Source of the DNA: Bacteroidota bacterium
GTDB taxonomy: Bacteria > Bacteroidota > Bacteroidia > Bacteroidales > Lentimicrobiaceae
Assembly: GCA_009773515.1 (NCBI GenBank)
Contig: WSXX01000040.1
Coordinates: 8,423 to 51,115 of the forward strand
DNA length: 42,693 bases
Direction: 5' to 3'
Shown here: positions 27,091-42,610 of the stretch, in pieces
How positions within the stretch are numbered: position 1 is the stretch's first letter
How the letters are laid out: each line of letters starts with the position of its first letter
The notes under the pieces: model-generated
Told to the model about the DNA's origin: nothing
Database searches by the model: none
Seen by the model: only the letters and a program-made list of their open reading frames with translations
Translations under genes and position numbers: made by a program

Positions 27091-27564
27091 TTCTGATTAA
27101 AGGGTTCACGCAAGGACGCAAGGCCGCAAAGATTTTATGAGATTTCGGATAGTCTTTAGAAATTGGAAGTCACTTGTCTCGGGAGCGCGAAGCGATAACG
27201 AGAGAAGTCACTTGTCTCGGGAGCGCGCAGCGATAACGAGAGAGGTCACTTGTCTCGGGAGCGCGCAGCGATAACGAGAGAGGTCACTTGTCTCGGGAGC
27301 GCGCAGCGATAACGAGAGAAGTCACTTGTCTCGGGAGCGCGAAGCGATAACGAGAGAAGTCGCTTGTCTCGGGAGCGCGCAGCGATAACGAGAGAGGTCA
27401 CTTGTCTCGGGAGCGCGTAGCGATAACGAGGATAGTTGATAGTCAAGTGAGAAAGTTCAGGTGTGTTCATTTTTAATCAAATTAGTGCATTGAAACTACA
27501 TTTTTTGGTTTCATATTAAACTTGTAAAATGAATTTGGTTTATATTTGTGCAAATTAATGTATT
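27091..27564. repeat. Repeat block: CGCAAGG unit, 7x38-bp hairpin array, heptamers
   Basis: After a GGTTCACGCAAGGACGCAAG element (about 27104-27123), seven tandem 38-bp units start at 27171, 27209, 27247, 27285, 27323, 27361 and 27399. Each holds one hairpin (TCTCG GGAG CGC GNA GCG ATAA CGAGA) and a TCACTTG linker. The middle loop base varies (A, C, T) while the stem is constant. GATAGTTGATAGTC heptamers follow. No gene except the promoter near 27541. Confidence 0.9.
27541..27548 (+). promoter_or_regulatory. Bacteroidota -7 box before abiEi copy 1
   Basis: TATATTTG fits TAnnTTTG. A TTG at 27522-27524 lies 16 bases upstream, slightly closer than usual for the -33 element. The GTG start at 27565 would leave a very short leader. 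Confidence 0.6.
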
Positions 27565-28386
27565 GTGAATACAGAAAATGGGTCTAAAATAAACAAATTG
27601 ATGCATATCCAACCGCCCGGCGTTGTGCTGACAAGTAGTTGGTTATTCAAGAAGGGATATAGCGCTGAGCTATTACGCACCTATCGCAACAGCCATTGGC
27701 TGAAGTCAATTGGCAACGGGGCAATGATAAGACAAAGCGATGAGGTTGATTATACAGGAGCCATATACACCTTACAGCAGCAATTGAATTTGAGTGCACA
27801 TCCTGCCGCTAAAACAGCAATGGCGCTTATGGGGAAAAGTCATTATCTGGGTCTTGGCAGTAATGTGGTTTATCTGTTTGGAAACGCTGGAGAGCGCCTG
27901 CCCTCATGGTTTAAAAATCATGACTGGGGTGTTGAAATCCGCTACATAGCCTCTGGTATTTTACCTGCCGGCAAAGGCATGGTTGAAAAAGAACACAGAA
28001 ATTTCTTTGTAAAAATTTCATCACCAGCAAGGGCTATTATGGAATGTTTGTATCTGGCGCCTCACAAACAAGACCTGACTGAGTGTTTTGAAATGATGGA
28101 GAGTCTCAATAATTTAAACCCGGTAAGCGTACAGGAGCTTTTAGAGCATTGTACTTCAGTAAAAGTGAAGAGGCTGTTTCTTTATATGGCAGAAAAGGCA
28201 GGTCACGTTTGGTTTAAGCACATAAATATAAGTCATATCGATTTGGGAAGTGGCAAGCGTAGTCTTGTTTCCGACGGTATTTTCGTTGCTGCTTATAATA
28301 TGACAGTCCCCAAAGAGCTGGAAGCTGATGAAAAAGAGTCTAAAGTCGATAGTCAGGTGAAGAAGTCAATAGTCAATAGTCCATAG
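27565..28386 (+). CDS. AbiEi_3-type antitoxin of a type IV toxin-antitoxin pair
   Basis: 273 aa. The N-terminal winged-helix part (SKINKLMHIQPPGVVLTSSW ... LLRTYRNSHWLKSIGNGAMI) and the C-terminal domain (SSPARAIMECLYLAPHKQDL, SVKVKRLFLYMAEKAGHVWF) match the AbiEi_3 antitoxin family. It should repress its own promoter and neutralise the nucleotidyltransferase toxin. GTG 27565 is preferred because the family N-terminus includes the SKINKL segment; ATG 27601 would cut into it. The last 14 or so residues (after ELEADEKE) are translated AATAGTC/GATAGTC heptamers and replace the natural end. The downstream toxin gene has lost its N-terminus. Confidence 0.85.
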   Translation: MNTENGSKINKLMHIQPPGVVLTSSWLFKKGYSAELLRTYRNSHWLKSIGNGAMIRQSDEVDYTGAIYTLQQQLNLSAHPAAKTAMALMGKSHYLGLGSNVVYLFGNAGERLPSWFKNHDWGVEIRYIASGILPAGKGMVEKEHRNFFVKISSPARAIMECLYLAPHKQDLTECFEMMESLNNLNPVSVQELLEHCTSVKVKRLFLYMAEKAGHVWFKHINISHIDLGSGKRSLVSDGIFVAAYNMTVPKELEADEKESKVDSQVKKSIVNSP

Positions 28387-28485
28387 CCTTTAGAAATTAG
28401 AAATTAGTCTTTAGAAATTGGTATAGTTGAATCTTTGAATTTTGAATCTTGAATCTTCAATTCACTGGCTGGCATCAGTGCAGCA
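28339..28485. repeat. Heptamer/octamer block at the antitoxin-toxin junction
   Basis: GATAGTC/AATAGTC heptamers that encode the antitoxin C-terminus continue into TAGAAAT heptamers and TTGAATCT octamers, ending at about 28460. The reading frame of the toxin emerges directly from the last unit, after an in-frame TGA. Confidence 0.85.
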
Positions 28486-29184
28486 TTGCAACAGATAGCA
28501 TCACAAATCAACGCATCATTGCCCGAAACCTATGCTCAGCATAGGAAATCAGAGGCCAAACTGAATGTTTCAAATAGTGAAGCCAGTATAAAAGTGGAAG
28601 TGAATGTCATTAAACGGGGATGTTTTAGTCCCCCTGTGATAATGACGTTATGTGATAAAGCACAACAGGAATATGATGTGTTCTGTGAAATTCAGGTAGT
28701 TGAAAAAGCTCACTTGTATGGAGGCAAGATATGTGCTGCACTTGACAGACAGCATCCCAGAGATTTATTTGACATCCAACAAATGTTCAAAACACAGCTT
28801 TTTGACGAAGAATTAAAAAAAGGGTTTATTTTTTATCTGGTGAGCTCAGGCAGACCGGTGTCTGAACTGTTGTTTCCAAACCTAATCGAACAGAGACAGG
28901 CTTTTAAGAATCAGTTTACAGGAATGACCCGGCAAGAATTCACTTATGCCGATTACGAGAATACGAGAACGCTTTTGATTGAAAAGATACACACCTCATT
29001 GACCACTTCTGACAAACTCTTCTTATTAAGATTTGAGCAGGGAATACCTGACTGGAGCTTATATGACTTCAATATTTTTCCTGCGGTACAATGGAAATTA
29101 TTAAACATACAACATCTCAAAACAAAAAACCCTGTCAAACATCAAAAAATGTGTATCGATTTTGAAGAAAGGCTTGCTTTTTAG
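28486..29184 (+). pseudogene. AbiEii-type nucleotidyltransferase toxin, N-terminus missing
   Basis: The frame aligns by eye with the middle and C-terminal parts of AbiEii toxins that partner AbiEi_3: ASIKVEVNVIKRG, YGGKICAALDRQHPRDLFDI, GMTRQEF and PDWSLYDFN. The normal N-terminal 70 or so residues, with the KGGT and DxD nucleotide-binding motifs, are absent. Homology starts at about NSLAGISAALQQIASQ and is preceded by repeat DNA and a TGA. Without GGT and DxD it cannot transfer nucleotides, so I call it a disabled toxin. TTG 28486 is only a formal start. Confidence 0.8.
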
Positions 29185-29305
29185 GCTGATTAAACCTGAT
29201 GGTTCAGGTGAAAAAGTCGATAGTCGATAGTATTTTGACATTAGAAATTGCTTGTCTCGGGAGCCTGCCCCGCCTCTTTTGCGGGAGAGCTCAGCGAGGT
29301 AATCT

Positions 29306-29611
29306 TTGAATCTCTGGGTAGCGCCGGTATTTTACTCTGTTATTACCCCCCAAGTCACCCCCCAAGTCACCCCCCAAGTTGAAAAACTACTTGTGGCTTT
29401 GCAATCTGGTGATAAAAGCAAGTCCGAATTACAGGCAATTATAGGTTTATCAGATAAGCACAACTTTACCCAACTGTACATTTTACCAGCAATTGAGCTT
29501 GGATTTGTCTCCCTTACGTTACCGGCTAAGCCAAAAAGTCGTTTTCAGAAATACAGGCTGACGTCAACCGGCTCGGAATATCTGGAGAATAAAACAGGAA
29601 GTAGTTTGTAG
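29306..29611 (+). pseudogene. C-terminal winged-helix fragment of a Fic-family-like protein
   Basis: The recognisable part runs from TPQVTPQVTPQVEKLLVALQ through SKSELQAIIGLSDKHNFTQL to AKPKSRFQKYRLTSTGSEYL, a C-terminal domain often found on Fic proteins and AlbA_2 regulators. The triple TPQV comes from nine-base repeats. Everything upstream of about 29320 is repeat DNA, and no Fic motif (HPFxxGNG) is present anywhere near, so the gene is decapitated. The TAG stop lies in the first unit of a TAGTCGATAGTC array. A small stand-alone DNA-binding protein is a less likely alternative. Confidence 0.6.
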
Positions 29612-29877
29612 TCGATAGTCTCGGGAGCCTGCCCGACTGCGCCACGCAGGCAGGCGTGAAGCGATAACGAGAGAAGTCACTTGTCTCGATAGTCTTTAGA
29701 AATTACTTGTCTCGGGAGCTCGAAGAGATAACGAGAGAAATTAGAAATTAGAAATTAGAAATTGTATCTCCCGAAAAAGCATCCTGATCCATTAACCAAT
29801 CCTATTTTTCACTTTTCACTTAGACGGTTGTAATGCGTGAATTTAGCCTGCCTGAATGTTAGCTTATAAATAACACA
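29612..29877. repeat. Repeat block with nested hairpin element
   Basis: Two hairpin elements are seen. The one at 29619-29672 carries an extra inserted stem GCCTGCC (29627-29633) / GGCAGGC (29649-29655); the other is of the CTC-GAA-GAG type (about 29706-29732). TAGAAAT heptamers and a divergent GTGAAAAATGCATC-like unit (ATCCTGATCCATTAACCAAT, about 29780) follow. No gene. Confidence 0.8.
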
Positions 29878-29906
29878 TGTCACAATTTTTTACTATTTTT
29901 GTGACA
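29878..29906 (+). promoter_or_regulatory. Palindromic operator overlapping a -7 box
   Basis: Perfect 8-bp arms TGTCACAA (29878-29885) and TTGTGACA (29899-29906) flank an AT-rich centre. TATTTTTG (29894-29901) fits TAnnTTTG and overlaps the right arm. The site is 15 bases before the antitoxin GTG, as expected for an autoregulated toxin-antitoxin operator. Confidence 0.7.
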
Positions 29907-29921
29907 TAATTATAAATAAAG

Positions 29922-30524
29922 GTGTCTGTTCATCAACATATAAAAAGCGAAATCCAAAGGCTGGAAAAAGGGAGCCTGCTATTTCCCGTTGATTATGCCG
30001 GGGCAGCCGGATATGATGCGCTGAGGCAGGCCTTTTCGCGTTTGGCGCGCGAGGGGTTCATTATCAGGCTTAGCAAAGGGGTGTATCTTTATCCGCGTAT
30101 CGATAAGGATCTTGGCATTTTATACCCATCAACCGAAAAGATACTTCAGGCTATCGCCAACCGCGACAAGATCAGAATTTTTGCTTCAGGAGCAAAAGCC
30201 CTGCATCAGTTAGGATTAACTTCACAAGTGCCAGTCAACGCAGTATATCTTACCGATGGCCCTGCACGTGAAATCAGGATAGGTAAACACACAATTATCC
30301 TGAAGAAAACAAGTCCGCGCAAACTGATGACCAGTGGCAGCATCAGCGGCCTTGTTGTGCATGCCATGCTGGGAATGGGTAAGGATCAGTTAACTGAAGA
30401 TATGATCGTGAAATTGAGAAGTATTCTGGCCGAAGAAAGCCCGGATAATATCAATCACGATTTAAAGCTTGTACCGGTGTGGATCAGCAGACTTTTACTG
30501 CAAAATCATGTTGAAAATGATTGA
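29922..30524 (+). CDS. AbiEi/DUF6088-family antitoxin
   Basis: 200 aa. The N-terminal winged helix (IKSEIQRLEKGSLLFPVDYA ... AFSRLAREGFIIRLSKGVYL) is followed by a domain with STEKILQAIANRDKIRIFAS, ALHQLGLTSQVP and LKKTSPRKLM, as in DUF6088-type antitoxins. It partners the intact AbiEii toxin that overlaps its 3' end and likely binds the palindrome at 29878-29906. GTG 29922 is the only suitable start near the promoter. Few repeats intrude into this pair, in contrast with the broken pair upstream. Confidence 0.85.
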   Translation: MSVHQHIKSEIQRLEKGSLLFPVDYAGAAGYDALRQAFSRLAREGFIIRLSKGVYLYPRIDKDLGILYPSTEKILQAIANRDKIRIFASGAKALHQLGLTSQVPVNAVYLTDGPAREIRIGKHTIILKKTSPRKLMTSGSISGLVVHAMLGMGKDQLTEDMIVKLRSILAEESPDNINHDLKLVPVWISRLLLQNHVEND

Positions 30525-31530
30525 GTGGCTACGTTTGCCTGACTCCCTGCGCGAAGAAACGCTTTACCAGGCAAATAACCAGACAGGTATATCGGCTAAA
30601 GCGATCGAGAAAGATTGGTGGATCACTCTTGTATTAAAAGCAATTCAGTTAATTCCTGACGCTGACCTATTCATATTCAAGGGCGGTACATCACTCAGCA
30701 AAGGGTGGGGACTGATAGACCGGTTTTCGGAAGATATTGATCTGGCTCTGGACAAAAACAGGTTTGGCCCGGATGAAAATTTCCAAAAAAAGGCCATCAC
30801 GGCATTGCGGCGAAAATCAAGTTTATATGTCCGCAATGAGTTAAAGGCGCAGTTAAACGATGTTTTCATGGGTTTGGGCCTCAGTTCATCTGAATTTACG
30901 CTTATCACGCCTAATCTTACAGTATCAGACCATGATCCGGAAATCATCGAAATCCACTACAAATCATTGCTGGAGTCCAATAATTACCTGGCCGACAAAG
31001 TGATACTGGAAATTAGTGTACGATCCATGCGTGAGCCTTTTGGCGCTGTCGAAATCAATTCGATGCTTAACGAAGTGTTTACACAGAGCCCATGGTCATA
31101 TAGTCCTTTCCGTTTGCAGGCTGTGCTACCGCAGCGAACGTTTCTGGAAAAAATATTTCTTATGCACGAAGAATTTTTAAAACCGGTCGAAAAAATAAGG
31201 AGTTTCAGAATGTCGCGTCACTTGTATGATCTGGAAAGGATGATGGATACCACCTATGCGTTAGATGCCATAAAGGACCATGACTTGTTTGATGCTGTTA
31301 TCTCGCACAGGAAAAGATTCATGCGGCTTTCAAATATTGATTATATCAATCATAAGCCGGAAACAATAGATTTTATTCCTCCGAAGGAACAATATGATGC
31401 CTTCAGAAAAGATTACAATGAGATGCGTTTGAATATGATTTACGGGGATTCTCCGGGTTTTGAAGACCTGCTCATCCGGCTGGTACTACTCAGGTCCAGG
31501 TTAAGGGAAACCTCACCCGAAAAAAAATGA
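30508..31530 (+). CDS. AbiEii/AbiGii-family nucleotidyltransferase toxin
   Basis: 340 aa from ATG 30508; ATG 30517 (MIEWLRLPDS) is equally possible. Both overlap the antitoxin end, giving translational coupling. Catalytic features are EKDWW (34-38), KGGTSLSK (58-65) and SEDIDLAL (74-81, with D76 and D78), a complete GGT plus DxD nucleotidyltransferase site. Characterised relatives (AbiEii, MenT) transfer nucleotides and stop growth, so this toxin looks active. Directly after its stop a headless sugar-transferase fragment begins. Confidence 0.87.
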   Translation: MLKMIEWLRLPDSLREETLYQANNQTGISAKAIEKDWWITLVLKAIQLIPDADLFIFKGGTSLSKGWGLIDRFSEDIDLALDKNRFGPDENFQKKAITALRRKSSLYVRNELKAQLNDVFMGLGLSSSEFTLITPNLTVSDHDPEIIEIHYKSLLESNNYLADKVILEISVRSMREPFGAVEINSMLNEVFTQSPWSYSPFRLQAVLPQRTFLEKIFLMHEEFLKPVEKIRSFRMSRHLYDLERMMDTTYALDAIKDHDLFDAVISHRKRFMRLSNIDYINHKPETIDFIPPKEQYDAFRKDYNEMRLNMIYGDSPGFEDLLIRLVLLRSRLRETSPEKK

Positions 31531-31531
31531 T

Positions 31532-31753
31532 ATAATCACAGGCACAGCAAGTCTTAAATACAGCAACGAAGAAGAACTTCTGGCATCGCAGCCTGATCCG
31601 GTAAAATATAACGACGAAGTATTGTTTCCTGACAAAGTAAGAATAAACCTGCACTACATCAAAACCCGCAGCTTTTGGATGGATTTGGGGATAATTGTTT
31701 TTACGCTGATAAGGAGGAGGCCGAGGGAGAGGTGGGTGGAAAGTGGAAAGTGA
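31532..31753 (+). pseudogene. C-terminal fragment of a bacterial sugar transferase
   Basis: No start codon. The frame reads IITGTASLKYSNEEELLASQ then DPVKYNDEVLFPDKVRINLH and YIKTRSFWMDLGIIVFTLIR, which equals the C-terminal third of phosphoglycosyltransferases. It is near-identical over about 130 bases to the intact gene at 37714-38325. The catalytic DE dyad is missing. The stop TGA lies in GTGGAAA/GTGAAAA heptamers. It begins one base after the toxin stop, so the toxin-antitoxin pair or a recombination event has replaced the 5' part. Confidence 0.85.
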
Positions 31754-32213
31754 AAAGTGAAGAGTGAAAAATGAAGAGTGAAAAGTGCTTGCCTCGGGAG
31801 CGCGAAGCGATAACGAGAGAGTCGATAGTCGATAGCCTTTAGAAATTAGAAATTAGAAATTAGAAATTGCTTGTCTCGATAGCCTTTAGAAATTACTTGT
31901 CTCGGGAGCTCGAAGAGATAACGAGAGAAATTAGAAATTAGAAATTGCTTGTCTCGGGAGCTCGAAGAGATAACGAGAGAAATTAGAAATTAGAAATTAG
32001 AAATTAGAAATTGCTTGTCTCGGGAGCTCGAAGAGATAACGAGAGAAATTAGAAATTAGAAATTAGAAATTAGAAAAGAGATAACGAGAGAAATTAGAAA
32101 TTAGAAATTAGAAATTAGAAATTGCTTGTCTCGGGAGCGCGAAGCGATAACGAGAGAAATTAGTATTACATTTGCATTTAAAAGAACCAATAATGTAAAT
32201 CAAAATACATTTT
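31754..32213. repeat. Repeat block: GTGAAAA and TAGAAAT heptamers with hairpin elements
   Basis: GTGAAAA/GTGAAGA heptamers (about 31741-31787), then hairpin elements alternating between the CGC-GAA-GCG and CTC-GAA-GAG stem types (about 31793, 31905, 31953, 32018, 32129), separated by runs of TAGAAAT. A truncated element (AAGAGATAACGAGAGA) occurs near 32074. A -7 box at 32167 ends the block. No gene. Confidence 0.85.
32167..32174 (+). promoter_or_regulatory. -7 box before the ATPase gene at 32214
   Basis: TACATTTG matches TAnnTTTG, 39 bases before the ATG. No TTG occurs at the usual -33 distance, because that position falls in the last hairpin element and TAGAAAT unit. Confidence 0.5.
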
Positions 32214-33506
32214 ATGGAACGTAAGATCGAGTTAAAATTATTAAACTGGAAGCAAAGTTCAAACCGATTACCACTTGTTATGCATGGTGCACGTCAGGTA
32301 GGCAAGACATACAGCCTGTTGAAGTTTGGCCGGAGTAATTATAAAAATGTTGCGTATTTCAATTTTGAAAGCAGCATGGAACTGCATGGTATTTTTACCA
32401 GGGACTTATCGCCGGAGCGCATATTGCGGGAATTGTCAGCATATACCTCGGCTGCGCTGGTGCCGGATGATACACTTATAATATTTGATGAAATTCAAGC
32501 CTGCGAGCGAGCTTTAACCTCGCTGAAATACTTCGCCGAAGAAGCACCTAAATACCACCTGGCTGCAGCGGGAAGCCTGCTGGGAGTGGCTATCAACCGC
32601 GATAAACATTCATTCCCTGTTGGTAAGATCCATCTTATTACGATGTATCCAATGGATTTTGAAGAGTTTATGCTGGCACAAAATAAAGCGCATGCGGTAT
32701 CGCTGATACGCGAATGTTATGCCAACAATGAAGCCTGCAATCTGCACGATACTTTTATGGATGACTTTCGGATATTTTTTGGTGTTGGCGGTATGCCTCA
32801 GGTTGTGAATGAATATATTTCATCAGGGGATTTCAACCTGATAATGGCATTACAGAAAAATATTATTGATACGTATATTGCTGATATGGCTAAATATGCA
32901 GGTCTTGCCGAAACTGTCAGGATAATGTCAGCATTTAATAGTGTGCCCGCTCAATTGGCCAAAGAAAACAGGAAATTCCAGTATAAAACTATTAAAAGCG
33001 GGGCAAGGGCTACACATTACGAGACTGCAATTGATTGGCTCGAAGCATCAGGCACTATTTATAAATGCATAAAAGTTACCGAAGGACTTTCCCCACTCAA
33101 TGCCTTTACTGAAGGAAGTTCTTTTAAAATCTACATGTCGGATACCGGATTACTTGCTTCGCGCTACGGCATTTCACCCAATATATTAAAGCAGGAATCA
33201 GCAACATGGCAGTCGGTAAAAGGCATACTCGCAGAGAATTATGTTGCAACTACCCTGACATCAAATGGTTATACTATCTTTTACTGGGAATCACAAGGTA
33301 AAGCCGAACTTGATTTTGTAATTCAGAATATTTCTGGTGAAGCCATCCCGATAGAAGTCAAATCATCAGAGAATGTGCGTTCAAAAAGTCTGCAACAATT
33401 TATTACCCGATATAAACCCACATGGTCTGTTAGGGTTTCTTCCAAAAACTTCGGATTTGAGAATAATATCAAGTCAGTGCCATTATATGCAGTGTTTTGC
33501 ATCTGA
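32214..33506 (+). CDS. AAA_14/DUF4143 ATPase with intact PD-(D/E)xK-like tail
   Basis: 430 aa. Walker A GARQVGKT (25-32), Walker B LIIFDEIQ near residue 90, sensor-like AAAGSLLGVA, and a DUF4143 C-terminal region containing YWESQGKAELDFVIQ and IPIEVKSSENV, that is a D and an ExK as in restriction-type nucleases. Such proteins are frequent, often multicopy, orphan ATPases in Bacteroidota and archaea, with no established role; defence, toxin-antitoxin and mobile-element functions have been considered. The gene has its own promoter and no partner gene. Confidence 0.88.
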   Translation: MERKIELKLLNWKQSSNRLPLVMHGARQVGKTYSLLKFGRSNYKNVAYFNFESSMELHGIFTRDLSPERILRELSAYTSAALVPDDTLIIFDEIQACERALTSLKYFAEEAPKYHLAAAGSLLGVAINRDKHSFPVGKIHLITMYPMDFEEFMLAQNKAHAVSLIRECYANNEACNLHDTFMDDFRIFFGVGGMPQVVNEYISSGDFNLIMALQKNIIDTYIADMAKYAGLAETVRIMSAFNSVPAQLAKENRKFQYKTIKSGARATHYETAIDWLEASGTIYKCIKVTEGLSPLNAFTEGSSFKIYMSDTGLLASRYGISPNILKQESATWQSVKGILAENYVATTLTSNGYTIFYWESQGKAELDFVIQNISGEAIPIEVKSSENVRSKSLQQFITRYKPTWSVRVSSKNFGFENNIKSVPLYAVFCI

Positions 33507-34449
33507 TTACTCTGACATGTTTGTATTTCCAGGCCTGGATACGATATAAAGTGGGGAGGTAAATTGAGTCGATAGTCGATGGTCGATAGTTGATAGTTGA
33601 TAGTCTATAGTCTATAGTCGATAGTCGATAGTCTCGGGAGCTCGAAGAGATAACAAGAGAGGTCGGAAGTCAGAGGTCAGAAGTCAGAGGTCAGAAGTCA
33701 CTTGTCTCGGGAGCGCGTAGCGATAACGAGAGAGGTCAGAGGTCAGAAGTCAATAGTCAATAGTCAATAGTCAATAGTCGATAGTCTTTAGTCTTTTGGC
33801 ATTAGAAATTAGAAATTAGTCTTTAGAAATTGGAATTCTTGAATCTTTGAATCCTTGAATCCTTGAATCCTTGAATCCTTGAATCTTTGAATCCTTGAAT
33901 CTTTGAATCCTTGAATCTTTGAATCTTTGAATCTTTGAATCCTTGAATCTTTGAATCCGGCTCAAATTTGTCACCCTGAGCGGAGTCGAAGGGTTGAATC
34001 TTTGAATCTTTCTTCACCTCATCCGCCCTTCGGGCACCTTCTCCTCAAGGAGAAGGGCCACTCCATCAAAGTCTTTGAATCCTTGAATCCGGCTCAAATT
34101 TGTCACCCTGAGCGGAGTCGAAGGGTTGAATCCTTGAATCTTTCTTCACCTCATCCGCCCTTCGGGCACCTTCTCCTCAAGGAGAAGGGCCACTCCCTCA
34201 AAGTCTTTGAATCCTTGAATCCGGCTCAGGCTCAAATTTGTCACCCTGAGCGGAGTCGAAGGGTTGAATCCTTGAATCTTTGAATCGTGCTTCACCTCAT
34301 CCGCCCTTCGGGCACCTTCTCCTCAAGGAGAAGGGCCACTCCATCAAAGTCATTGAATCTTGAATCTTTAAATCCTTGAATCCTTGAATCTTTGAATCTT
34401 TGAATCTTTGAATTCCATAGCGCATGTGCTAAGAAAATAAACTATTGCG
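33507..34449. repeat. Large repeat block with three ~132-bp mosaic copies
   Basis: 33507-33565 holds nothing recognisable. Then GATAGTC, AGAGGTC and TAGAAAT heptamers with two hairpin elements, and from about 33838 TTGAATCY octamers. Three mosaic units follow, each containing CCCTGAGCGGAGTCGAAGGG (from about 33974, 34106, 34244) and a double-hairpin element with GCCCTTCGGGC and CCTTCTCCT/AGGAGAAGG arms (about 34014, 34147, 34292). Octamers return up to about 34411. Plus- and minus-strand open frames here are translations of repeats. Confidence 0.9.
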
Positions 34450-34467
34450 TATATTTGTATTGTACAA
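34450..34467 (+). promoter_or_regulatory. -7 box with small inverted repeat before the ATPase at 34480
   Basis: TATATTTG (34450-34457) fits TAnnTTTG. The inverted repeat TTGTA (34455-34459) / TACAA (34463-34467) overlaps it and could be an operator. The ATG is 13 bases further on. Confidence 0.55.
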
Positions 34468-34479
34468 ACAAAACATCCA

Positions 34480-35685
34480 ATGCAGGAAGATCTCATAATC
34501 CGTAGCAAATATCATCAAAGTTTGCTGCCATACATTGGCAAACAACTGATCAAGGTATTAACAGGGCAGCGCCGTGTTGGCAAAAGTTATATCATGAAAC
34601 AGACTATGATGCATATCAGCAAGGCTGATCCTGCTGCAAATATTATCTATATAAATAAAGAAGATCTGGCATTCGCCGGAATAAAAACGGCAACCGACCT
34701 GGATGAATATGTACGGAATAATACAAAAGAGGGTGTAGTCAATTGTGTTTTTGTCGACGAAATACAAGAGATTGACCAGTTTGAAAAAGCAATGAGGAGT
34801 TTGTTGCTCAATCCGGTTTATGATTTGTATTGTACGGGTAGCAATGCAAATATGTTGTCGGGGGAATTATCAACCTTTCTGAGCGGCCGTTACATCGAAA
34901 TTCCGGTTTATAGCTTGTCTTACCCTGAATTTCTGATATTTCATCACCTGGAAAATACGGTGGCCTCACTTATGTTATATCTCAGGTATGGCGGATTACC
35001 GTATCTGAAACATCTTGAACTGAAAGAAGAAATTGTATTTGGTTATCTCAGAGGGGTTTATAGTACCGTTATTTACCGCGATGTAATGATGCGGAATGAG
35101 ATCCGGAATGCCGCTTTTCTGGAGAACCTGGTATTGTTTCTGGCAGACAATACAGGCCAGCTCTTCTCTGCCAAAAAGATAAGCGACTATTTAAAATCGC
35201 AGAAAACAAACATAGCCACCTCTCAGATAATCAGTTATCTGAAGCATTTGTCTGATGCCTTTTTGATTCATAAAGTCGGGCGATATGATATTGTCGGTAA
35301 AAGGATATTTGAAATTGGGGAAAAGATCTATTTTGAGGATATCGGACTCAGAAATGCGATTATTGACTTTAAACAGGCCGATATTGGCAAACTGATGGAG
35401 AATGCAGTGTACAATCATCTGCTGTTCAACGGTTATGAAGTGAAAGTTGGCCAGCTGGGGAAGCTTGAAATTGATTTTGTAGCCAGGCGTAAAGGTGAGA
35501 TACGGTATATACAGGTTTGCTATCTGTTACATGACGGAGCCACCATCGAACGTGAATTCGGGAATCTGGAAATGATCAATGACAATTATCCAAAGATGGT
35601 TATATCATTTGATGAATTTGCCGGCAATACACGTAAAGGAATTCTGCATTACAATTTGCGCGATTTCCTTACAATGGAGCTTTAA
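34480..35685 (+). CDS. AAA_14/DUF4143 ATPase with degenerate nuclease motif
   Basis: 401 aa. Walker A TGQRRVGKS (28-36), Walker B CVFVDEIQEI, TGSNANMLSGELSTFLSGRY (the conserved SGR segment of this subgroup), YLRYGGLPYL, and the C-terminal LEIDFVARR...IQVCYLL, where the ExK of nuclease-like relatives has become QVCY. It is closely related to the protein at 38701 (same layout, for example YLSGRYVQIEVHALSYPEFL against FLSGRYIEIPVYSLSYPEFL). No partner gene; repeats flank both sides. Function unknown. Confidence 0.88.
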   Translation: MQEDLIIRSKYHQSLLPYIGKQLIKVLTGQRRVGKSYIMKQTMMHISKADPAANIIYINKEDLAFAGIKTATDLDEYVRNNTKEGVVNCVFVDEIQEIDQFEKAMRSLLLNPVYDLYCTGSNANMLSGELSTFLSGRYIEIPVYSLSYPEFLIFHHLENTVASLMLYLRYGGLPYLKHLELKEEIVFGYLRGVYSTVIYRDVMMRNEIRNAAFLENLVLFLADNTGQLFSAKKISDYLKSQKTNIATSQIISYLKHLSDAFLIHKVGRYDIVGKRIFEIGEKIYFEDIGLRNAIIDFKQADIGKLMENAVYNHLLFNGYEVKVGQLGKLEIDFVARRKGEIRYIQVCYLLHDGATIEREFGNLEMINDNYPKMVISFDEFAGNTRKGILHYNLRDFLTMEL

Positions 35686-36097
35686 AGTGAATTTGGTCAT
35701 AGGTCTCGGGAGCCTGCCTGACTGCGCCAGGCACGAAGGCCCAAATTTGTCACCCTGAGTCCCGCAAGTGCGGAAAAGGGTTGAATCCTTGAATCTTTGA
35801 ATCCTTGAATCCGGCTCAAATTTGTCACCCTGAGCGGAGTCGAAGGGTTGAATCCTTGAATCTTTGAATCTTTCTTCACCTCATCCGCCCTTCGGGCACC
35901 TTCTCCTCAAGGAGAAGGGCCACTCCATCAAAGTCATTGAATCTTGAATCTTTGAATCCTTGAACCGACCGAAGGGAGCTCAGCGAAGCTAATCCTTGAA
36001 TCCTTGAATCTTTGAATCCTTGAATCTTTGAATCCTTGAATCTTTGAATCCTTGAATCTTTGAATCTTTGAATCTTTGAATTATGGAATAGAAACAT
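35686..36097. repeat. Repeat block with stem-substituted elements
   Basis: A GTCTCGGGAGCCTGCC element with a nested stem (about 35702), a CCCTGAG...AAGGG element whose centre is replaced by CCGCAAGTGCGG (about 35755-35780), a normal CCCTGAGCGGAGTCGAAGGG (about 35829), one double-hairpin element (about 35877-35927), a GACCGAAGGGAGCTCAGCGA segment, then TTGAATCY octamers to 36081. No gene. Confidence 0.85.
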
Positions 36098-36105
36098 TAT
36101 TTTTG
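36075..36105 (+). promoter_or_regulatory. Promoter with repeat-derived -33 box
   Basis: TTTG (36075-36078) in the last CTTTGAAT unit lies 19 bases from TATTTTTG (36098-36105), the canonical Bacteroides spacing of TTTG and TAnnTTTG. The ATG at 36125 follows 19 bases later. Confidence 0.65.
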
Positions 36106-36124
36106 TAGTCTATAATTATTTAAT

Positions 36125-37480
36125 ATGAAATTCGTCAACAGATTAGAAGAGCAAAAGCGGCTTTCATCAGCACTGGATGGTAAAACCCCATCGTTTGTCG
36201 TGGTATATGGTCGCCGCCGTTTAGGTAAATCAACCTTACTAAAAAAGGTACTTTCTCATGCTGATGTCTATTACATGGCAGACCAGACTGAACGTTCGCA
36301 TCAGATTGAACTGCTGGCTAAAGAAATCGGACTCCGGATTGAGGGTTTCGAGCGGCTGATTTATCCCGATTGGAATGCCCTTTTCGAAGCGCTCAATTTT
36401 CGCACCCGGGAAAGATTTACACTCTGTATTGATGAATTTCCCTATCTGGTAAAAAGTTCGCCGGAACTACCGGCACTTCTCCAAAAACTGATTGATGCAA
36501 AATCGCTCAGTTACAACATTATTTTATGCGGATCGTCGCAGCAGTTGATGCAGGGCCTGGTACTTGATGCAACATCTCCGCTTTATGGCCGTGCCGACCA
36601 GATTCTGAAACTATCGCCTATTCCGATCAAATATTTCCAGGAAGTCCTGGATTGTTCGGCACAAGAAGCCATTGAAGAATACGCCGTTTGGGGTGGTGTG
36701 CCCCGATATTGGGAAATTCGTCAGCAAAGCGATTCTCTCAAAGAAGCCATCGAAAACAATATACTGAATGCGCAAGGACTGCTTTTCGATGAGCCTTACC
36801 GTTTATTCATTGACGATATGCGTGATATTGTGCAGGCATCAACCTTACTTTCATTTATAGGCAATGGCGTAAACCGAATTTCAGAAATTGCCACAAGGAC
36901 AAACAAACCAGCTACAAGTCTTTCTGGCCCGCTGGATAAATTAATTACACTGGGGTACATCCAACGCGAAATTCCGTTTGGAGATAGCGCCCGAAACAGC
37001 AAAAAAGGACTATACAAAATATCCGATCCTTATATGGATTTTTATTTCAGGTTTGTTGTGCCCAACCGCTCTTTGATAGAATTGGGCCGCACTGATACTG
37101 TAATGGAAGAGGTTGCTGGCCGGTTCAACGCATATGTATCATGGCATTGGGAGAATCTTTGCCGAAAGGCAATCAGCGGACAAATACTGATGGGTAAGCG
37201 CTATGGGTTGGCTTCACGTTGGTGGGGTAATGTATCCCGCGATGAACATATGGAAATCGATGTTATTGCCGAATCAACTGATGGTAAGTGTTTACTCATT
37301 GGTGAATGCAAGTGGTCGGAGAATGAAAATACCCGCCATCTGCTCCAACAATTAACTGAAAAAGCAAATAAATTACCTTTTGTGGCAAATAAAAAAATTG
37401 TACCGGTTTTGTTTTTGAAAAATAATAAAAAATCAGAAGAAAATATTCTGCAACCAACCCAGGTTATTGAAATGTTATAA
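36125..37480 (+). CDS. AAA ATPase with DUF234-type C-terminal domain
   Basis: 451 aa. N-terminal MKFVNRLEEQKRL and Walker A VYGRRRLGKST (27-37); Walker B FTLCIDEFPYL; WGGVPRYWEI; a winged-helix segment (NRISEIATRTNKPATSLSGP); YKISDPYMDFYFRFV; and a C-terminal DUF234 domain with MEIDVIAES...LLIGECKWS, an intact D...ExK. This type (archaeal ATPase plus DUF234) differs from the three DUF4143 neighbours, but the layout ATPase, winged helix, nuclease-like tail is analogous. Orphan gene with its own promoter. Function unknown. Confidence 0.88.
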   Translation: MKFVNRLEEQKRLSSALDGKTPSFVVVYGRRRLGKSTLLKKVLSHADVYYMADQTERSHQIELLAKEIGLRIEGFERLIYPDWNALFEALNFRTRERFTLCIDEFPYLVKSSPELPALLQKLIDAKSLSYNIILCGSSQQLMQGLVLDATSPLYGRADQILKLSPIPIKYFQEVLDCSAQEAIEEYAVWGGVPRYWEIRQQSDSLKEAIENNILNAQGLLFDEPYRLFIDDMRDIVQASTLLSFIGNGVNRISEIATRTNKPATSLSGPLDKLITLGYIQREIPFGDSARNSKKGLYKISDPYMDFYFRFVVPNRSLIELGRTDTVMEEVAGRFNAYVSWHWENLCRKAISGQILMGKRYGLASRWWGNVSRDEHMEIDVIAESTDGKCLLIGECKWSENENTRHLLQQLTEKANKLPFVANKKIVPVLFLKNNKKSEENILQPTQVIEML

Positions 37481-37713
37481 ATGGAAAAAGAACTCATTAG
37501 CTCTCAAGCTTCTTGAATCTTTGAATCTTTGAATCTTTGAATCTTTGAATCTTTGAATCCGGCTCAAATTTGTCACCCTGAGCGGAGTCGAAGGGTTGAA
37601 TCCTTGAATCCTTGAATCCTTGAATCCTTGAATCCTTGAATCTTTGAATCTTTGAATCTTTGAATTTTTGAATTTTTGAATTTTTGAATCTTGAATCCTT
37701 GAATCCTTGAATC
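37481..37713. repeat. TTGAATCY octamer array abutting a TTG start
   Basis: Octamers (also in a TTGAATTT variant) surround one CCCTGAGCGGAGTCGAAGGG element (about 37577). The array continues without any spacer into the coding sequence, whose start codon TTG 37714 is the first three bases of the last unit. Confidence 0.9.
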
Positions 37714-38325
37714 TTGAAACGCATCTTTGATATCATATCTTCTTGCTTAGCAATGTTATTGCTGTTACCATTATTGCTTTTGGTGGCCATACTTATAAAA
37801 CTAACCATGCCTGGTCCGGTATTGTTCCGGCAAACGCGCATTGGTTTTGGCGGCAAGCCTTTTGTGATCTTAAAATTCCGTTCCATGCGGGTCAATAAAT
37901 CCACGGTATCCATAACCCTGAGCAGCGACACCCGTGTAACACCATTGGGCAGGTTTATCAGGAAAACAAAAATTGACGAATTTCCCCAGCTCTGGAACAT
38001 CCTGAAAGGAGAAATGAGTGTGGTAGGTCCCAGGCCCGACGTACCAGGTTACTCCGACAAACTAACCGGCACAGATCAGCTGTTATGGACAGTACGCCCC
38101 GGCCTCACAGGATTAGATTCAATAACCTATCCCAACGAAGAATCAATACTCGATCAGCAGCCCGACCCGCAAAAGTATTACGACGAAGTGCTGTGGCCGG
38201 ATAAGGTAAGAATTAACCTGCACTACATCAAAACCCGCAGCTTTTGGATGGATTTGGGGATAATTGTTTTTACGCTGCTACGAAGAAAACCACTGGAATC
38301 GTGGGTGTCTGTTGATAGTCGATAG
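37714..38325 (+). CDS. Initiating phosphoglycosyltransferase (bacterial sugar transferase), second locus
   Basis: 203 aa. The re-entrant membrane helix KRIFDIISSCLAMLLLLPLL begins right at the start. FRQTRIGFGGKPFVILKFRS, the DE dyad D88/E89 in KIDEFPQLW, KGEMSVVGPRPDV and RPGLTGLDS follow. It transfers a sugar-phosphate to undecaprenyl phosphate. TTG 37714 must be the start: KRIFDII is a family-conserved N-terminus, and the next ATG (codon 14) would cut the helix. This TTG belongs to the octamer array. The last residues VDSR and the TAG stop come from a GATAGTC heptamer. A C-terminal duplicate is at 31532-31753. Confidence 0.9.
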   Translation: MKRIFDIISSCLAMLLLLPLLLLVAILIKLTMPGPVLFRQTRIGFGGKPFVILKFRSMRVNKSTVSITLSSDTRVTPLGRFIRKTKIDEFPQLWNILKGEMSVVGPRPDVPGYSDKLTGTDQLLWTVRPGLTGLDSITYPNEESILDQQPDPQKYYDEVLWPDKVRINLHYIKTRSFWMDLGIIVFTLLRRKPLESWVSVDSR

Positions 38326-38642
38326 AGGTCAGAAGTCAGATGTCACTTGTCTCGGGAGCGCGTAGCGATAACGAGAGAGGTCAGAAGTCGCTTGACTCGG
38401 GAGCTCGAAGAGATAACGAGATAGTCGATAGTCAAGTGAATAAGTCTTTAGTCAATAGTCGATAGTCAATAGTCAAGTGAAGAAGTCGATAGTCGATAGT
38501 CAATAGTCGATAGTCTCGGGAGCACGAAGTGATAACGAGATAGTCGATAGTCTTTAGAAATTAGAAATTAGAAATTAGAAATTAGAAATTGCTTGTCTCG
38601 ATAGTCTTTAGAAATTAGAAATTAGAAATTAGAAAAAATTAG
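38326..38642. repeat. Heptamer and hairpin repeat block
   Basis: AGAAGTC, GATAGTC, AATAGTC and TAGAAAT heptamers with three hairpin elements of different stem types: CGC-GTA-GCG (about 38349), CTC-GAA-GAG (about 38396) and CAC-GAA-GTG (38514-38540). No gene. Confidence 0.9.
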
Positions 38643-38693
38643 TTTACTTATACGAAAAGAATATTGTATATTTGTATAATCTTTTACTTATAC
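38643..38693 (+). promoter_or_regulatory. -7 box between direct TTTACTTATAC repeats
   Basis: TATATTTG (38667-38674) fits TAnnTTTG. Identical 11-mers TTTACTTATAC lie at 38643-38653 and 38683-38693 (40 bases apart, about four helical turns), and GTATAA beside the box is the reverse complement of the TTATAC ends. This looks like a repressor site controlling the ATPase gene at 38701. Confidence 0.6.
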
Positions 38694-38700
38694 AAAAAAC

Positions 38701-39903
38701 ATGAAGAATACAGAATACATTCCCCGAAGCCTGTATTTCAACAAGATAGAGCCATTTATTGGTTCTGGCCTTATAAAAGTACTAACCGGACAGCGAAGGG
38801 TAGGTAAAAGTTATGTATTGTTACAGGTAATGGATGAAATACGTAAACGCGACAAAAGCGCCAACATCATTTACATCAACAAGGAGGATTATCGTTTTGA
38901 GTCAATCAGAACCCACAGCGATCTGATGGCTTATATTAACAATCATCGTGGTGGTTCGGGCACGCGATGCCTGTTTATAGATGAGGTTCAGGATATCAGT
39001 AATTTCGAACTGGCGCTGCGCAGCCTGCAAGCGGTTGACGATTGGGACATCTACATAACCGGCAGCAATGCAACGCTCTTATCGGGTGAATTGGCAACCT
39101 ACCTGAGTGGCAGGTATGTGCAAATTGAAGTTCATGCTTTATCGTATCCCGAATTTTTACAATTTCACCAGCTTACTGACAGCGCAGAATCATTCCTGAC
39201 ATACATCCGTTGGGGTGGAATGCCTCATTTGATCAACCTTCGCAGAAACGATGCAGTGGTATATGAATATCTGCGCAACATACACAATTCAATTATTCTT
39301 CGTGACATCATTGCACGCTTCAATATCAGAAATGTCCAATTTCTGCAGGATCTGATCAATTATCTGGCCGACATCACCGGAAGTGTGTTATCAGCCAAAC
39401 GAATCAGTGACTATTTGAAATCGCAGCAAATCAATCTGACGCCGAAGCTGGTATTGGAATATCTGGTTTACCTTGAATCGGTTTATCTCATCAATAGAGT
39501 AAAACGTATGGATGTAGAGGGGAAAAAAATATTTGAGATTGGCGATAAGTTCTTTTTTGAGGATCTTGGTATGCGCCATGCCATTATTCCATTCCAGCAG
39601 AAAGACATTGGCAAAGTACTCGAAAATCTGGTGCATCACCATTTGGTTGTAAATGGCAATCAGGTTTATGTAGGAAAGCATAGCGAGCGGGAAATTGATT
39701 TTATTGCCATAAAAGATGAGAATAAAACCTACGTACAGGTAGCATATCTGATTACCGACGACAAAACCCACGACAGGGAGTTTGGCAATTTGCTGGCAAT
39801 ACCCGACAACTGCACAAAAATAGTGGTAAGTATGGATGAAACCGCGACCGGCAATTTTAAAGGAATTGAACATGTCTCTATCCGCAACTTTTTGATGAGG
39901 TAA
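38701..39903 (+). CDS. AAA_14/DUF4143 ATPase with degenerate nuclease motif, paralogue
   Basis: 400 aa and a paralogue of the protein at 34480. Walker A TGQRRVGKS (29-37), Walker B CLFIDEVQDI, TGSNATLLSGELATYLSGRY, YIRWGGMPHL, AKRISDYLKSQQ, and C-terminal REIDFIAIK...VQVAYLI, again lacking the ExK lysine. The two differ enough throughout to be old duplicates rather than recent copies. The gene has its own putative operator-controlled promoter, and the repeat array starts at the stop codon. Function unknown. Confidence 0.88.
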   Translation: MKNTEYIPRSLYFNKIEPFIGSGLIKVLTGQRRVGKSYVLLQVMDEIRKRDKSANIIYINKEDYRFESIRTHSDLMAYINNHRGGSGTRCLFIDEVQDISNFELALRSLQAVDDWDIYITGSNATLLSGELATYLSGRYVQIEVHALSYPEFLQFHQLTDSAESFLTYIRWGGMPHLINLRRNDAVVYEYLRNIHNSIILRDIIARFNIRNVQFLQDLINYLADITGSVLSAKRISDYLKSQQINLTPKLVLEYLVYLESVYLINRVKRMDVEGKKIFEIGDKFFFEDLGMRHAIIPFQQKDIGKVLENLVHHHLVVNGNQVYVGKHSEREIDFIAIKDENKTYVQVAYLITDDKTHDREFGNLLAIPDNCTKIVVSMDETATGNFKGIEHVSIRNFLMR

Positions 39904-40339
39904 TAGTCGATAGTCGAAGTCAATAGTCAATAGTCGATAGAGGTCAGAAGTCAGAAGTCAGAGGTCAGAAGTCACTTGTCTCGGGAGCGCGAAGCGATAA
40001 CGAGATAGTCGATAGTCGATAGTCAATAGTCTATAGTCTATAGTCAAGTAAATAAGTCGATAGTCACTAGTCTTTCTGAATTAAGAAGCAATTCTGACAT
40101 CCGACATCCGACCTCTGACCTCAACCCCCCTACCTCCGACCTCTGACCTCTGACCTCCGACCTCTTAATCCTTGAATCCTTGAATCTTTGAATCCTTGAA
40201 TCTTTGAATCCTTGAATCCTTGAATCCTTGAATCCTTGAATCCTTGAATCCTTGAATCCTTGAATCCTTGAATCCTTGAATCTTTGAATCCTTGAATCCT
40301 TGAATCCTTGAATCTTTGAATCTTTGAATCCTTGAATCC
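39904..40339. repeat. Heptamers in both orientations and the longest TTGAATCY octamer array
   Basis: GATAGTC, AGAAGTC and one hairpin element (about 39979) come first. Then GACCTCT/GACCTCC units (about 40096-40164), the reverse complement of the AGAGGTC family, and from 40167 to 40339 some twenty TTGAATCY octamers run directly into a TTG start codon. Minus-strand open frames (GFKDSRIQ-type peptides) are translations of the array. Confidence 0.9.
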
Positions 40340-41458
40340 TTGAAAATCACCCCCTCCAACCCACACTTGTACGACTTCAACCGTTTGCTTTCTTCCATGC
40401 AAGCATCGGGAGACGCGGACAACCTCAGCCTGAATCCCTGTCTGCCGGGTATAACCGGCAAAGCCATGCACTGGCCGTATATCGCTTTGTTGTTTGAGAT
40501 AAATCACAAACCCATAGCCTGGTTTGCTGCACTGCGCACCGGTAAAGAGTGGTTCTCACTGCCACACTTTAACAACGGGGCGTATTGGTTTCATGAAAAG
40601 GAATTTAATACAGCAACGGGGAATGGACAAAAAGAGGGTTGCAACAAACGCAGTTTCTACAATCACTTTATCCTTAACGGAGAATGGTTCAAAACCATAC
40701 CCACCGAAGATCAACTGCTGATCATCAGCCTCGATGAAGAAGATATAAAAAAGGCAGAGCACTCAGCAGCATCAGCAACAACACTGAAAGTCCGGGACAA
40801 TGCAATATTGAGTGATCACCGCCTCAGTCACAAGGTTGACAGTCAGCTTGAGTTAAAAAATACCGAAGAACAACAGCTTTCAGCACTTCCATCAGCAGTC
40901 CGGCGTAAAATTAACAAAGCAACACGCAACGGCATCAGCACACAAACCGGAGGAGCGGAACTGCTCAGCACTTATTATGCGGTTTACCGGAAGAAAATAC
41001 ATGAACTGGGCTCGTTTGCCCTGCCTTTTGGCTTTTTTGAATTGTTGCTGAAAGAATATACCCATGGCGACATAAGGCTGATGATAGCTTATGACAAAGG
41101 CAAGCCCATTGGATGTGCGGTACTGATGACCTTCGGTCGCTACGCTGAAAACCCCTGGTTTGCCACACTTAAATCGCACAATCAACTGTATGTAAGCTAC
41201 CTCTTGCATTGGGAAATGATAAAATACGCGATAAATGCAGGCTGCAGTTTATACTCATTTGGCTACAGCACCATTCACAGTGGGGTACATCATTACAAGC
41301 AGCAGTGGGGTGCAACCGACAAACCAATACACCTGAACAGCAATCATCCGGTAAGTGATAAGCTGGAGAAAAAACAATATCTTCGCAGCATAATAAAACG
41401 CCTGCCCATGTCATTTACAAAGTGGCTGGATCAATACATAGCCCAACGCTATTATTAA
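40340..41458 (+). CDS. FemAB/GNAT-like acyltransferase family protein
   Basis: 372 aa. The N-terminal part shows FNRLLSSMQASGD and EINHKPIAWFAALRTGKEWF. The C-terminal part has SAVRRKINKATRNGI, YYAVYRKKIHELGSFALPFG, GDIRLMIAYDKGKPIGCAVL and YSFGYSTIHSGVHHYKQQWG, typical of the FemAB-like proteins found in exopolysaccharide loci. A transfer of an aminoacyl or acyl group to a glycan is likely. The TTG start (40340) is in the last octamer; the next ATG is codon 20, so the exact N-terminus is less certain than for 37714. It is eleven bases from the deacetylase gene. Confidence 0.75.
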   Translation: MKITPSNPHLYDFNRLLSSMQASGDADNLSLNPCLPGITGKAMHWPYIALLFEINHKPIAWFAALRTGKEWFSLPHFNNGAYWFHEKEFNTATGNGQKEGCNKRSFYNHFILNGEWFKTIPTEDQLLIISLDEEDIKKAEHSAASATTLKVRDNAILSDHRLSHKVDSQLELKNTEEQQLSALPSAVRRKINKATRNGISTQTGGAELLSTYYAVYRKKIHELGSFALPFGFFELLLKEYTHGDIRLMIAYDKGKPIGCAVLMTFGRYAENPWFATLKSHNQLYVSYLLHWEMIKYAINAGCSLYSFGYSTIHSGVHHYKQQWGATDKPIHLNSNHPVSDKLEKKQYLRSIIKRLPMSFTKWLDQYIAQRYY

Positions 41459-41468
41459 TAAACATTAC

Positions 41469-42329
41469 ATGTCTGCCGGAAACCTGAACCTGCTCAGCAT
41501 CGATATCGAAGACTGGTATCTCAGTTATGATTCATCCCAGATAACACCGGCAAAATGGCATTTGCTCGAAAGCAGGGTTACCCAAAGCACCCGTATTTTT
41601 CTTAAACTGCTGGCGGAACATCAGCTGAAAGCAACATTTTTTGTACTAGGGTGGATAGCCGAACAGCATCCGGAACTGATCAGAGAAATTTCAGAGGCTG
41701 GTCATGAAATAGGATATCACTCCTACAATCATGCCTTGCCTGTAAATCAGGGGCCGGTAGAATTTGAGGCCGATCTGATACGTGGGCTCGATCTTCTTGA
41801 GAACATTACAGGAAAGCGACCGGTACAATACAGGGCACCGATGTTTTCTTTATGCAACGAGTCATCGTGGGCACTGCCGCTGTTGATGAAACACGGCATA
41901 GAAATCAGCAGTTCCTACAAAGCATTTCAAAGGGTAAACGGACATAAAATCCCGAACGGACCATTTTACTTTATACATGGCAACAATCGTTTGCTCGAGC
42001 TTCCGCTCAACAGGCTGAATCTGCCGGCATTGAACTGGGTATATTCCGGAAGTGGCTATTTCAGGCTATTGCCGATCGGTGTGTTAAAAAGCCTGTTCAG
42101 CCAAAGCAGATACAACATGGCCTACTTTCATCCCCGCGACTTCGACCTGAGTGTGCCCACCACCAAACAATTGCCCGCTTACCGCAATTTCATGAACAGG
42201 GTAGGCAATGCAAGTACAAGTCCCAAACTCAATAAGCTGCTGAATGAATTTGGTTTTATTCCATTAGGCCAGGCCGCAGTGCAACTCAGGCAACAAACCC
42301 TTCCGGAGATAATTATCGATAGTCTTTAG
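41469..42329 (+). CDS. NodB-type polysaccharide deacetylase (PEP-CTERM/XrtA-like locus type)
   Basis: 286 aa. SIDIEDWY (10-17, catalytic D12/E14/D15 region as in the DUF3473-type deacetylases), ATFFVLGWIAEQHPELI, GYHSYNH (H84, H88) and QYRAPMFS. There is no signal peptide, which is normal for this subgroup. It would deacetylate a lipid-linked or nascent glycan. The C-terminal residues IIDSL and the stop TAG are formed by ATCGATAGTCTTTAG repeat DNA, so the natural terminus may have been overwritten. It starts eleven bases after the FemAB-like gene. Confidence 0.88.
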   Translation: MSAGNLNLLSIDIEDWYLSYDSSQITPAKWHLLESRVTQSTRIFLKLLAEHQLKATFFVLGWIAEQHPELIREISEAGHEIGYHSYNHALPVNQGPVEFEADLIRGLDLLENITGKRPVQYRAPMFSLCNESSWALPLLMKHGIEISSSYKAFQRVNGHKIPNGPFYFIHGNNRLLELPLNRLNLPALNWVYSGSGYFRLLPIGVLKSLFSQSRYNMAYFHPRDFDLSVPTTKQLPAYRNFMNRVGNASTSPKLNKLLNEFGFIPLGQAAVQLRQQTLPEIIIDSL

Positions 42330-42610
42330 ACAGAAGTCAGAAGTCACTTGTCTCGGGAGCGCGTAGCGATAACGAGAGAGGCCACTTGTCTCGGGAGCGT
42401 GAAGAGATAACGAGAGAGGTCATAAAACTGGAAATTAGAACCACGAATCTTTGATGTTTCTATCTTTGAGTCCTTGAATCTTGAATCCTTGAATCTTGAA
42501 TCCTTGAATCTTTGAATCAGGCTTAAATTTGTCACCCTGAGCGGAGTCGAAGGGTTGAATCTTTGAATCTTTGAATCTTTGAATCTTTGAATCTTTGAAT
42601 CCTTGAATCC
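42330..42610. repeat. Repeat block ending in an octamer array at a TTG start
   Basis: AGAAGTC heptamers, two hairpin elements (CGC-GTA-GCG near 42350; a mismatched CGT-GAA-GAG near 42388), octamers, one CCCTGAGCGGAGTCGAAGGG (about 42536) and further octamers to 42610. Confidence 0.9.

Follow-up and report, generated by a model that had tools for sequence, protein, structure and literature searches.

A hairpin repeat set in register between heptamers in Lentimicrobium, resembling repetitive extragenic palindromes

The stretch of DNA analysed here (the window) is 42,693 nt long and lies within contig C65 of a 5.03 Mb genome, probably of the genus Lentimicrobium. It carries many copies of a short hairpin element which had been proposed by a first-pass annotation of the sequence and which is a repetitive extragenic palindrome (REP)-like repeat in the broad sense, being a short palindromic repeat present in many copies, mostly between genes. 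The pattern TCTCGGGAGNNNGNANNNATAACGAGA was found 22 times in the window (allowing up to 3 mismatches), with 18 of the 22 matches exact and all on the + strand, compared to no matches in 100 dinucleotide shuffles of the window, and the repeat family is therefore real. All but one of the matches lie within 27171-42420, the remaining one being at 4549-4575. The inner stems fall into three paired types and one mismatched copy, with no further forms in the window; the examples given in the first-pass annotation were correct in both position and form (CGC/GCG at 27177-27203, CTC/GAG at 4549-4575 and CAC/GTG at 38514-38540), and the mismatched copy to which it referred was located at 42389-42415 (CGT/GAG). 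The loop reads GNA, with A, C or T at its centre, in all 22 copies. A three-base loop had been said to occur always; this holds for the 22 matches but not for a variant at 29615-29672, in which the ends of the element enclose a long inner hairpin. The motif first recognised is also only part of the conserved unit, which extends over 31 nt from CTTG (CTTG-TCTCG-GGAG-CGC-GNA-GCG-ATAA-CGAGA) and has near-constant ends (CTTGTCTCGGGAG...ATAACGAGA).

The first copy in the window, a pattern match of the form CTC-GAA-GAG, occupies 4545..4575 on the + strand, as do all copies and fragments that follow. Seven tandem 38-bp units, each consisting of a heptamer GARGTCR and a 31-nt element, are found at 27166..27431 (element starts at 27173, 27211, 27249, 27287, 27325, 27363 and 27401). 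These head-to-tail units vary at 4 of 38 positions, differences between neighbours being confined to the loop centre, the third and seventh bases of the heptamer and the last base; the loop centre is altered in four of the six neighbour steps and the remaining 30 element bases together once. Copies then occur at 29706..29736 (CTC-GAA-GAG, flanked by GAAATTA heptamers), at 31788..31818 (starting CTTGCCTCG, downstream of a GAAAAGT-type array) and four times in GAAATTA arrays at 31896..32155, where those at 31896, 31948 and 32014 are CTC/GAG and that at 32125 is CGC/GCG, with a 3' fragment among them at 32076-32089. GATAGTC arrays hold the copies at 33628..33658 (CTTG replaced by ATAG, CTC/GAG, 3' arm CAAGA) and 38510..38540 (CAC-GAA-GTG), and a GTA loop is present in those at 33701..33731, 38346..38376 and 42347..42377. 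The copy at 38391..38421 is CTC/GAG with A as the first stem base, that at 39975..40005 is CGC-GAA-GCG, and the mismatched copy (42385..42415, CGT-GAA-GAG) is predicted to fold as DNA without an inner stem. Incomplete forms comprise the 5' part alone (CTTGTCTCGGGAG) followed by other sequence at 29251..29263, and the 5' fragment CTTGTCTCG fused to ATAGTC at 29680..29688 (identified by eye) and 38592..38600 or to ATAGCC at 31870..31878.

A model built from 81 copies gave 81 matches in this genome (G000), a number which may be low as 150 of 1125 candidates were scored. More than half of these (46 of 81) are on two contigs, with 35 on C65 (51 kb) and 11 on C25 (12 kb). Among other Lentimicrobium genomes there were 55 matches in G006 and 1 to 8 in seven more, giving 9 of 19 genomes in total. 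A search of named genome contigs with the exact pattern returned 8 stretches in three other metagenome-assembled genomes (MAGs), and those beyond the genus belonged to HGW-Bacteroidetes-14 and a Saprospirales MAG. A class-wide search of 395 genomes, under strict filters which recovered just 19 of the 81 copies in G000, returned G000 only. Carriage by phage was considered and set aside, with one exact pattern giving no matches in viral contigs. Several copies are within about 300 bp of contig ends (G000:C1, C4 and C8, and several G006 contigs), as expected if repeats break assembly.

The position of all 146 model matches relative to genes was assessed using crude open reading frame (ORF) calls, with contig-end cases included. 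Across the several genomes, 11 of the 146 lay within an ORF of at least 110 amino acids. In the window, 21 of 23 matches were between two + strand ORFs and the other two were in a short minus-strand ORF (115 amino acids). Copies in G000 outside C65 and C25 were on the same strand as two co-directional adjacent genes in 7 cases and on the opposite strand to such genes in 12, with 4 between divergent genes, 3 between convergent genes and 3 with a gene on one side, while the figures for other species were 11 same, 12 opposite, 3 divergent and 8 convergent. On these calls, element strand shows no tie with gene strand outside C65/C25 and in other species, and the uniform strand in the window is therefore best explained by local multiplication. 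Genes near the element encode AbiE-type toxin-antitoxin proteins, ATPases (AAA_14/DUF4143 and DUF234), an acetyltransferase-like protein and a polysaccharide deacetylase. Within the window, an AbiEi_3/AbiEii pair and a DUF6088/AbiEii pair, both of the type IV toxin-antitoxin type, lie at 27565-31527 amid repeat-rich intergenic regions, and ATPase genes of the AAA_14/DUF4143 kind are found further on.

The unit has a 5 bp stem, a 4x4 internal loop, a 3 bp stem and a three-base loop, and intact copies are predicted to fold in this way as single-stranded DNA, with one extra A-T pair in the internal loop. The 5' foot is CTTG in most copies. Most also contain TGTC, the TC of which forms the first two stem pairs and so is not an unpaired tag. 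Before conservation, heptamers and distinct forms were analysed, 14 of the 146 matches were removed as duplicates of element and near flanks (some of these are true separate copies with identical flanks), and the 115 of the remaining 132 rows that are 31 nt long were used for conservation and for pairing in distinct forms. Variation was greatest at the loop centre, where 51 of 115 rows depart from the majority, followed by base 21 (30 of 115). All 27 positions other than the loop centre and positions 7, 15 and 21, which covary, were more than 90% conserved. Wobbles in the inner stem, read on the element strand, were 15 T.G or G.T vs 2 C.A.

In the first-pass annotation, paired stem changes were taken as a strong argument that the fold is under selection or that copying passes through a folded intermediate. 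Among 62 distinct 31-mers, 446 of 496 pair cells were paired (shuffled mean 426) and 19 were compensated double changes (shuffled mean 4.9), with none of 2000 shuffles reaching either value, although the shuffles take no account of kinship among copies. A set of 40 distinct rows gave a similar result, with 90% of cells pairing vs 85.5% when shuffled and 14 double-change cells vs 3.4 (none of 500 shuffles as high). In the same 40 rows, neither the number of pairs changed on both sides (3 vs 2.1, with 154 of 500 shuffles reaching 3) nor that of further pair types (11 vs 10.4, with 234 of 500 reaching 11) exceeded the shuffles. Double changes are thus above expectation but few, and 17 of the 19 fall at two pairs, 15-21 and 7-29. 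Pair 15-21 changes from G-C to T-A or A-T (GC 52, TA 9, AT 1, GT 2 and GA 3 in the 67 rows from G000), pair 7-29 from T-A to C-G (6 of 48 rows outside G000 and 0 of 67 within it) and pair 5-31 also from T-A to C-G; at pair 7-29, broken distinct forms (13) outnumber compensated ones (6). The opposite pattern, with unpaired forms as common as paired ones, applies in part, as the 95 cells departing from the majority in the 62 forms divide into 19 compensated, 26 G.T and 50 unpaired. The excess of double changes and the exchanged inner hairpins described below agree with the earlier claim, which was nevertheless too strong given the limited covariation and because no copying machinery was found in the loci inspected. 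Neither selection on the fold nor copying via a folded intermediate is demonstrated, and template switching at a quasi-palindrome could alternatively give rise to the paired changes.

In other Lentimicrobium species, inner segments were found to be exchanged for other hairpins and not for unpaired sequence. Identical or nearly identical ends enclose ACGGC-GATA-GCCGG or near relatives in G001, G013, G005, G014 and G018; one G018 copy has the inner hairpin GCTG-CGC-CAGC and one G001 copy has an inverted loop (GATA to TATC). A longer inner hairpin is present in the window copy at 29615-29672 and in G000:C31. That the segment remains a hairpin when its sequence is exchanged is the strongest sign that foldability matters, whether via selection or via the copying process.

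The element sits in register between heptamers which mostly fit GANNNYR. In 126 of 132 rows the heptamers on either side of it could be compared, and agreed at a mean of 5.25 of 7 bases in register vs 1.46-2.73 at other shifts, with 26 pairs identical; heptamers next to each other agreed at 4.39 and 4.69 bases. Shuffled controls gave 4.06 for the element-flanking heptamers vs 3.32 and 3.48 for neighbouring ones. A target duplication is unsupported, the excess of the flanking heptamers over shuffles being about equal to that of neighbouring heptamers. At L088:7227 the variant GTAATTA stands on either side of the element inside a GAAATTA array. Repeats at lag 7 are frequent and are lost on shuffling, but in the window lag 8 is equally common, and in two groups of loci from relatives lag 9 occurs more often than lag 7, so 7 is not the sole period.

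A site downstream of one gene (site B; the gene has a DNA match in 17 of 19 genomes) was compared between species. The element follows just after the stop codon in G013, G001 and G005, while G016 has heptamers only, and alignment of G016 with G005 shows one 50-bp gap equal to two heptamers plus a 36-nt element, with small gaps further on; the position was not found in G004, and neither G003 nor G014 gave a match. Heptamer arrays of other letters occur at site B in several species that lack the element there, which indicates that the arrays are independent of the element. The arrays at these loci (L154-L170) differ after the one conserved gene in several Lentimicrobium species, and heptamer units seem to turn over at this fixed site.

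The element was compared with known repeats as described in extracts of the papers cited. Like CGTC REPs, it is a short hairpin repeat and is also found in Bacteroidetes (PMC3733652). CGTC REPs have no dedicated transposase (PMC3733652); for the element, no copy was seen at the 34 RAYT loci inspected with 1.5 kb flanks. CGTC REPs, in many of which the head is altered to TGTC, have 8-9 bp stems, loops of 4-5 bases, an unpaired terminal tag (CGTC, TGTC or CCTC) and mostly CCA tails, and they occur predominantly as head-to-head pairs and rarely in clusters (PMC3733652), whereas the element has 5+3 bp around an internal loop, a three-base loop and a TGTC whose TC is within the stem, and forms direct one-strand clusters instead of head-to-head dimers. 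GTAG REPs, which accompany genes for REP-associated tyrosine transposases (RAYTs), are also hairpin repeats, comparable in size and in some cases with a bulge in the stem (PMC6006769), but the element has no GTAG/GTGG foot and no adjoining RAYT gene in the loci inspected. It therefore falls outside both groups while resembling known bacterial hairpin repeats. Intergenic heptamer arrays, as found here, are described for TAACTGA (also in Bacteroidetes; PMC4679880) and GGGNATC (PMC4692102), although the heptamers are different and no in-register hairpin is mentioned in the extracts. The BrickBuilt repeat of Porphyromonas gingivalis (PMC4596501) is likewise an intergenic tandem repeat in Bacteroidetes, but consists of 23-nt spacerless units inside a miniature inverted-repeat transposable element with inverted-repeat ends. 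The hairpin is not that of an intrinsic terminator, since what comes after it is a heptamer (GAAATTA or GAGGTCA, for example) and not a T run, and Rfam gave no match in the window at gathering score. No paper with the exact letters of the element was found in the open-licence literature. The first-pass annotation noted that the CGC-GAA-GCG form contains GCGAAGC, said to be an exceptionally stable DNA mini-hairpin, and there are papers on stable mini-hairpins.

A second hairpin family with a TGTC head (TGTC-N5-GA-GCGNAG(T)C-GA-N5), for which no name was found, has 190 pattern matches in G000 and at least one match in 72 of 295 class genomes. In the window, TGTC-ACCCT-GA-GCGGAGTC-GA-AGGGT is present on the + strand at 33969, 34101, 34239, 35823, 37571 and 42530, with a variant at 35748, and the copies sit in TTGAATC-type octamer arrays. 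Among 18 copies from the loci examined, collected without requiring pairing, fully paired stems were ACCCT/AGGGT (7), ACACT/AGTGT (2), AGTCT/AGACT (1) and ATCCT/AGGAT (1), and stems with one mismatch were CTCCT/AGGAT (5) and ATCCT/AGGAC (2); the outer stem thus varies in matched pairs, and inner hairpins are swapped also. The family shares with the element its TGTC head, outer stem, purine internal loop, small tip, matched changes and exchanged inner hairpins, but differs in sequence and in its octamer, not heptamer, arrays in the window. Hairpins follow TGTC at a somewhat higher rate (37.5 per 1000) than nine other four-letter words (22.3-30.9). These observations point to a broader class of hairpins with a TGTC head, for which common descent is not claimed. 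By eye, CACCTCATCCGCCCTTCGGGCACCTTCTCCTCAAGGAGAAGG was also seen three times at 34010-34345, each time with two small inverted repeats.

The reading we favour, and to which we would give an even chance, is that the element is a REP-like DNA hairpin repeat which multiplies locally via recombination between heptamers. Slippage and unequal recombination between flanking heptamers would account for the clustering, for the tandem array of 38-bp units and for each cluster being on one strand. Spread to other heptamer arrays would be rare and would occur when single-stranded DNA was copied into another array, either by template switching or through the action in trans of a candidate single-strand DNA enzyme. 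Folding of the strand during copying would give rise to the paired changes, foldability would be kept by the better copying of foldable copies, and the element would work as DNA and not as RNA. This reading is drawn from the in-register heptamers, the 38-bp units, the clustering on C65 and C25, the gap in G016, the swapped inner hairpins and the fused fragments, as well as from the strand counts outside C65/C25 and the inner-stem wobbles. Several points weigh against it. The mechanism is one that we infer; predicted stability is modest (DNA z -1.1 to -2.3 for intact 31-nt copies), and it is as RNA (z -4.7) and less so as DNA (z -3.5) that the 36-nt form stands out; outer-stem wobbles show no preference for the element strand (13 vs 17); the excess over shuffled pairing is alike for flanking (1.19) and neighbouring (1.07 and 1.21) heptamers; and the single element-free site is as compatible with gain as with loss. 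Local recombination also does not explain the matches in the two other Bacteroidetes MAGs, the short loci of which have no lag-7 arrays.

A purely passive origin, in which the hairpin is spread and corrected by slippage, recombination and template switching, with neither selection nor a dedicated enzyme involved, is unlikely but must be taken seriously. It is in keeping with the fused fragments, the one inverted loop, the clusters, the limited covariation and the element-free heptamer arrays at site B in other species, but the conservation of 27 positions and the replacement of inner segments by hairpins, and not by unpaired sequence, argue against it.

We consider it rather more doubtful that the repeat is a non-autonomous element under active mobilisation, with a Y1/HUH single-strand transposase (RAYT-like) or other enzyme cutting at the heptamer border and moving the 38-nt unit. 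A constant-ended hairpin with in-register flanks, head-to-tail 38-bp units and copies on many contigs would be compatible with such an enzyme, and Y1_Tnp (PF01797) is present in 15 of 19 Lentimicrobium genomes, with 7 matches in G000; furthermore, at L141, a RAYT locus of G012, seven flanking palindromes start with TTGTCCCG, letters common to the TCCCG form of the element. No copy of the element, however, was found at 34 RAYT loci inspected with 1.5 kb flanks (7 in G000 and 27 in the genus; some Y1_Tnp matches have no locus). At the 7 loci in G000, nothing matched with 4 substitutions or fewer and the 5 matches obtained had 5-6, 4 of 6 scanned have palindrome families of their own, and the 27 genus loci contain separate half motifs only. 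G012 itself has no element match, the RAYT type of element-rich G006 has no match in G000 at E 1e-8 although G000 has the most copies, and no clean target duplication is seen. A RAYT partner was rejected on the 34 loci and on the absence of the G006 type from G000. Y1_Tnp genes flanked by their own repeated palindromes were observed at L031, L033, L035 and L037 (G000) and at L141; the Y motifs of L031 (YIKNQEEHH) and L141 (YIKTQEIHH) resemble subclass 1.2, which is listed without REP-type structures in the extract of PMC6006769.

It is conceivable, as a long shot, that hairpin and heptamer together serve as the unit of a so far undescribed system in Bacteroidetes for copying single-stranded DNA, whose enzyme would read the constant ends of the folded strand, tolerate any inner hairpin and join copies at heptamer borders, at least some heptamer arrays being its footprints. 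Least probable of all is an RNA element of 3' regions acting in processing, stability or termination, since the location of 21 of 23 window matches between + strand ORFs, the site B copy just past a stop codon and the unusually good RNA fold of the 36-nt form are set against the lack of a gene-strand tie outside C65/C25 or in other species, of a T run and of an Rfam match in the window, and against an RNA z of -0.7 to -1.9 for intact 31-nt copies.

The origin of REP-like repeats without a known transposase and that of bacterial heptamer arrays are both not agreed, as described in extracts of PMC3733652 and PMC4679880. Here the two kinds of repeat are joined in register, the inner hairpins are exchangeable, a close relative has an empty site and the genome holds a second TGTC family, and this combination makes the spread of such repeats testable in one genus.

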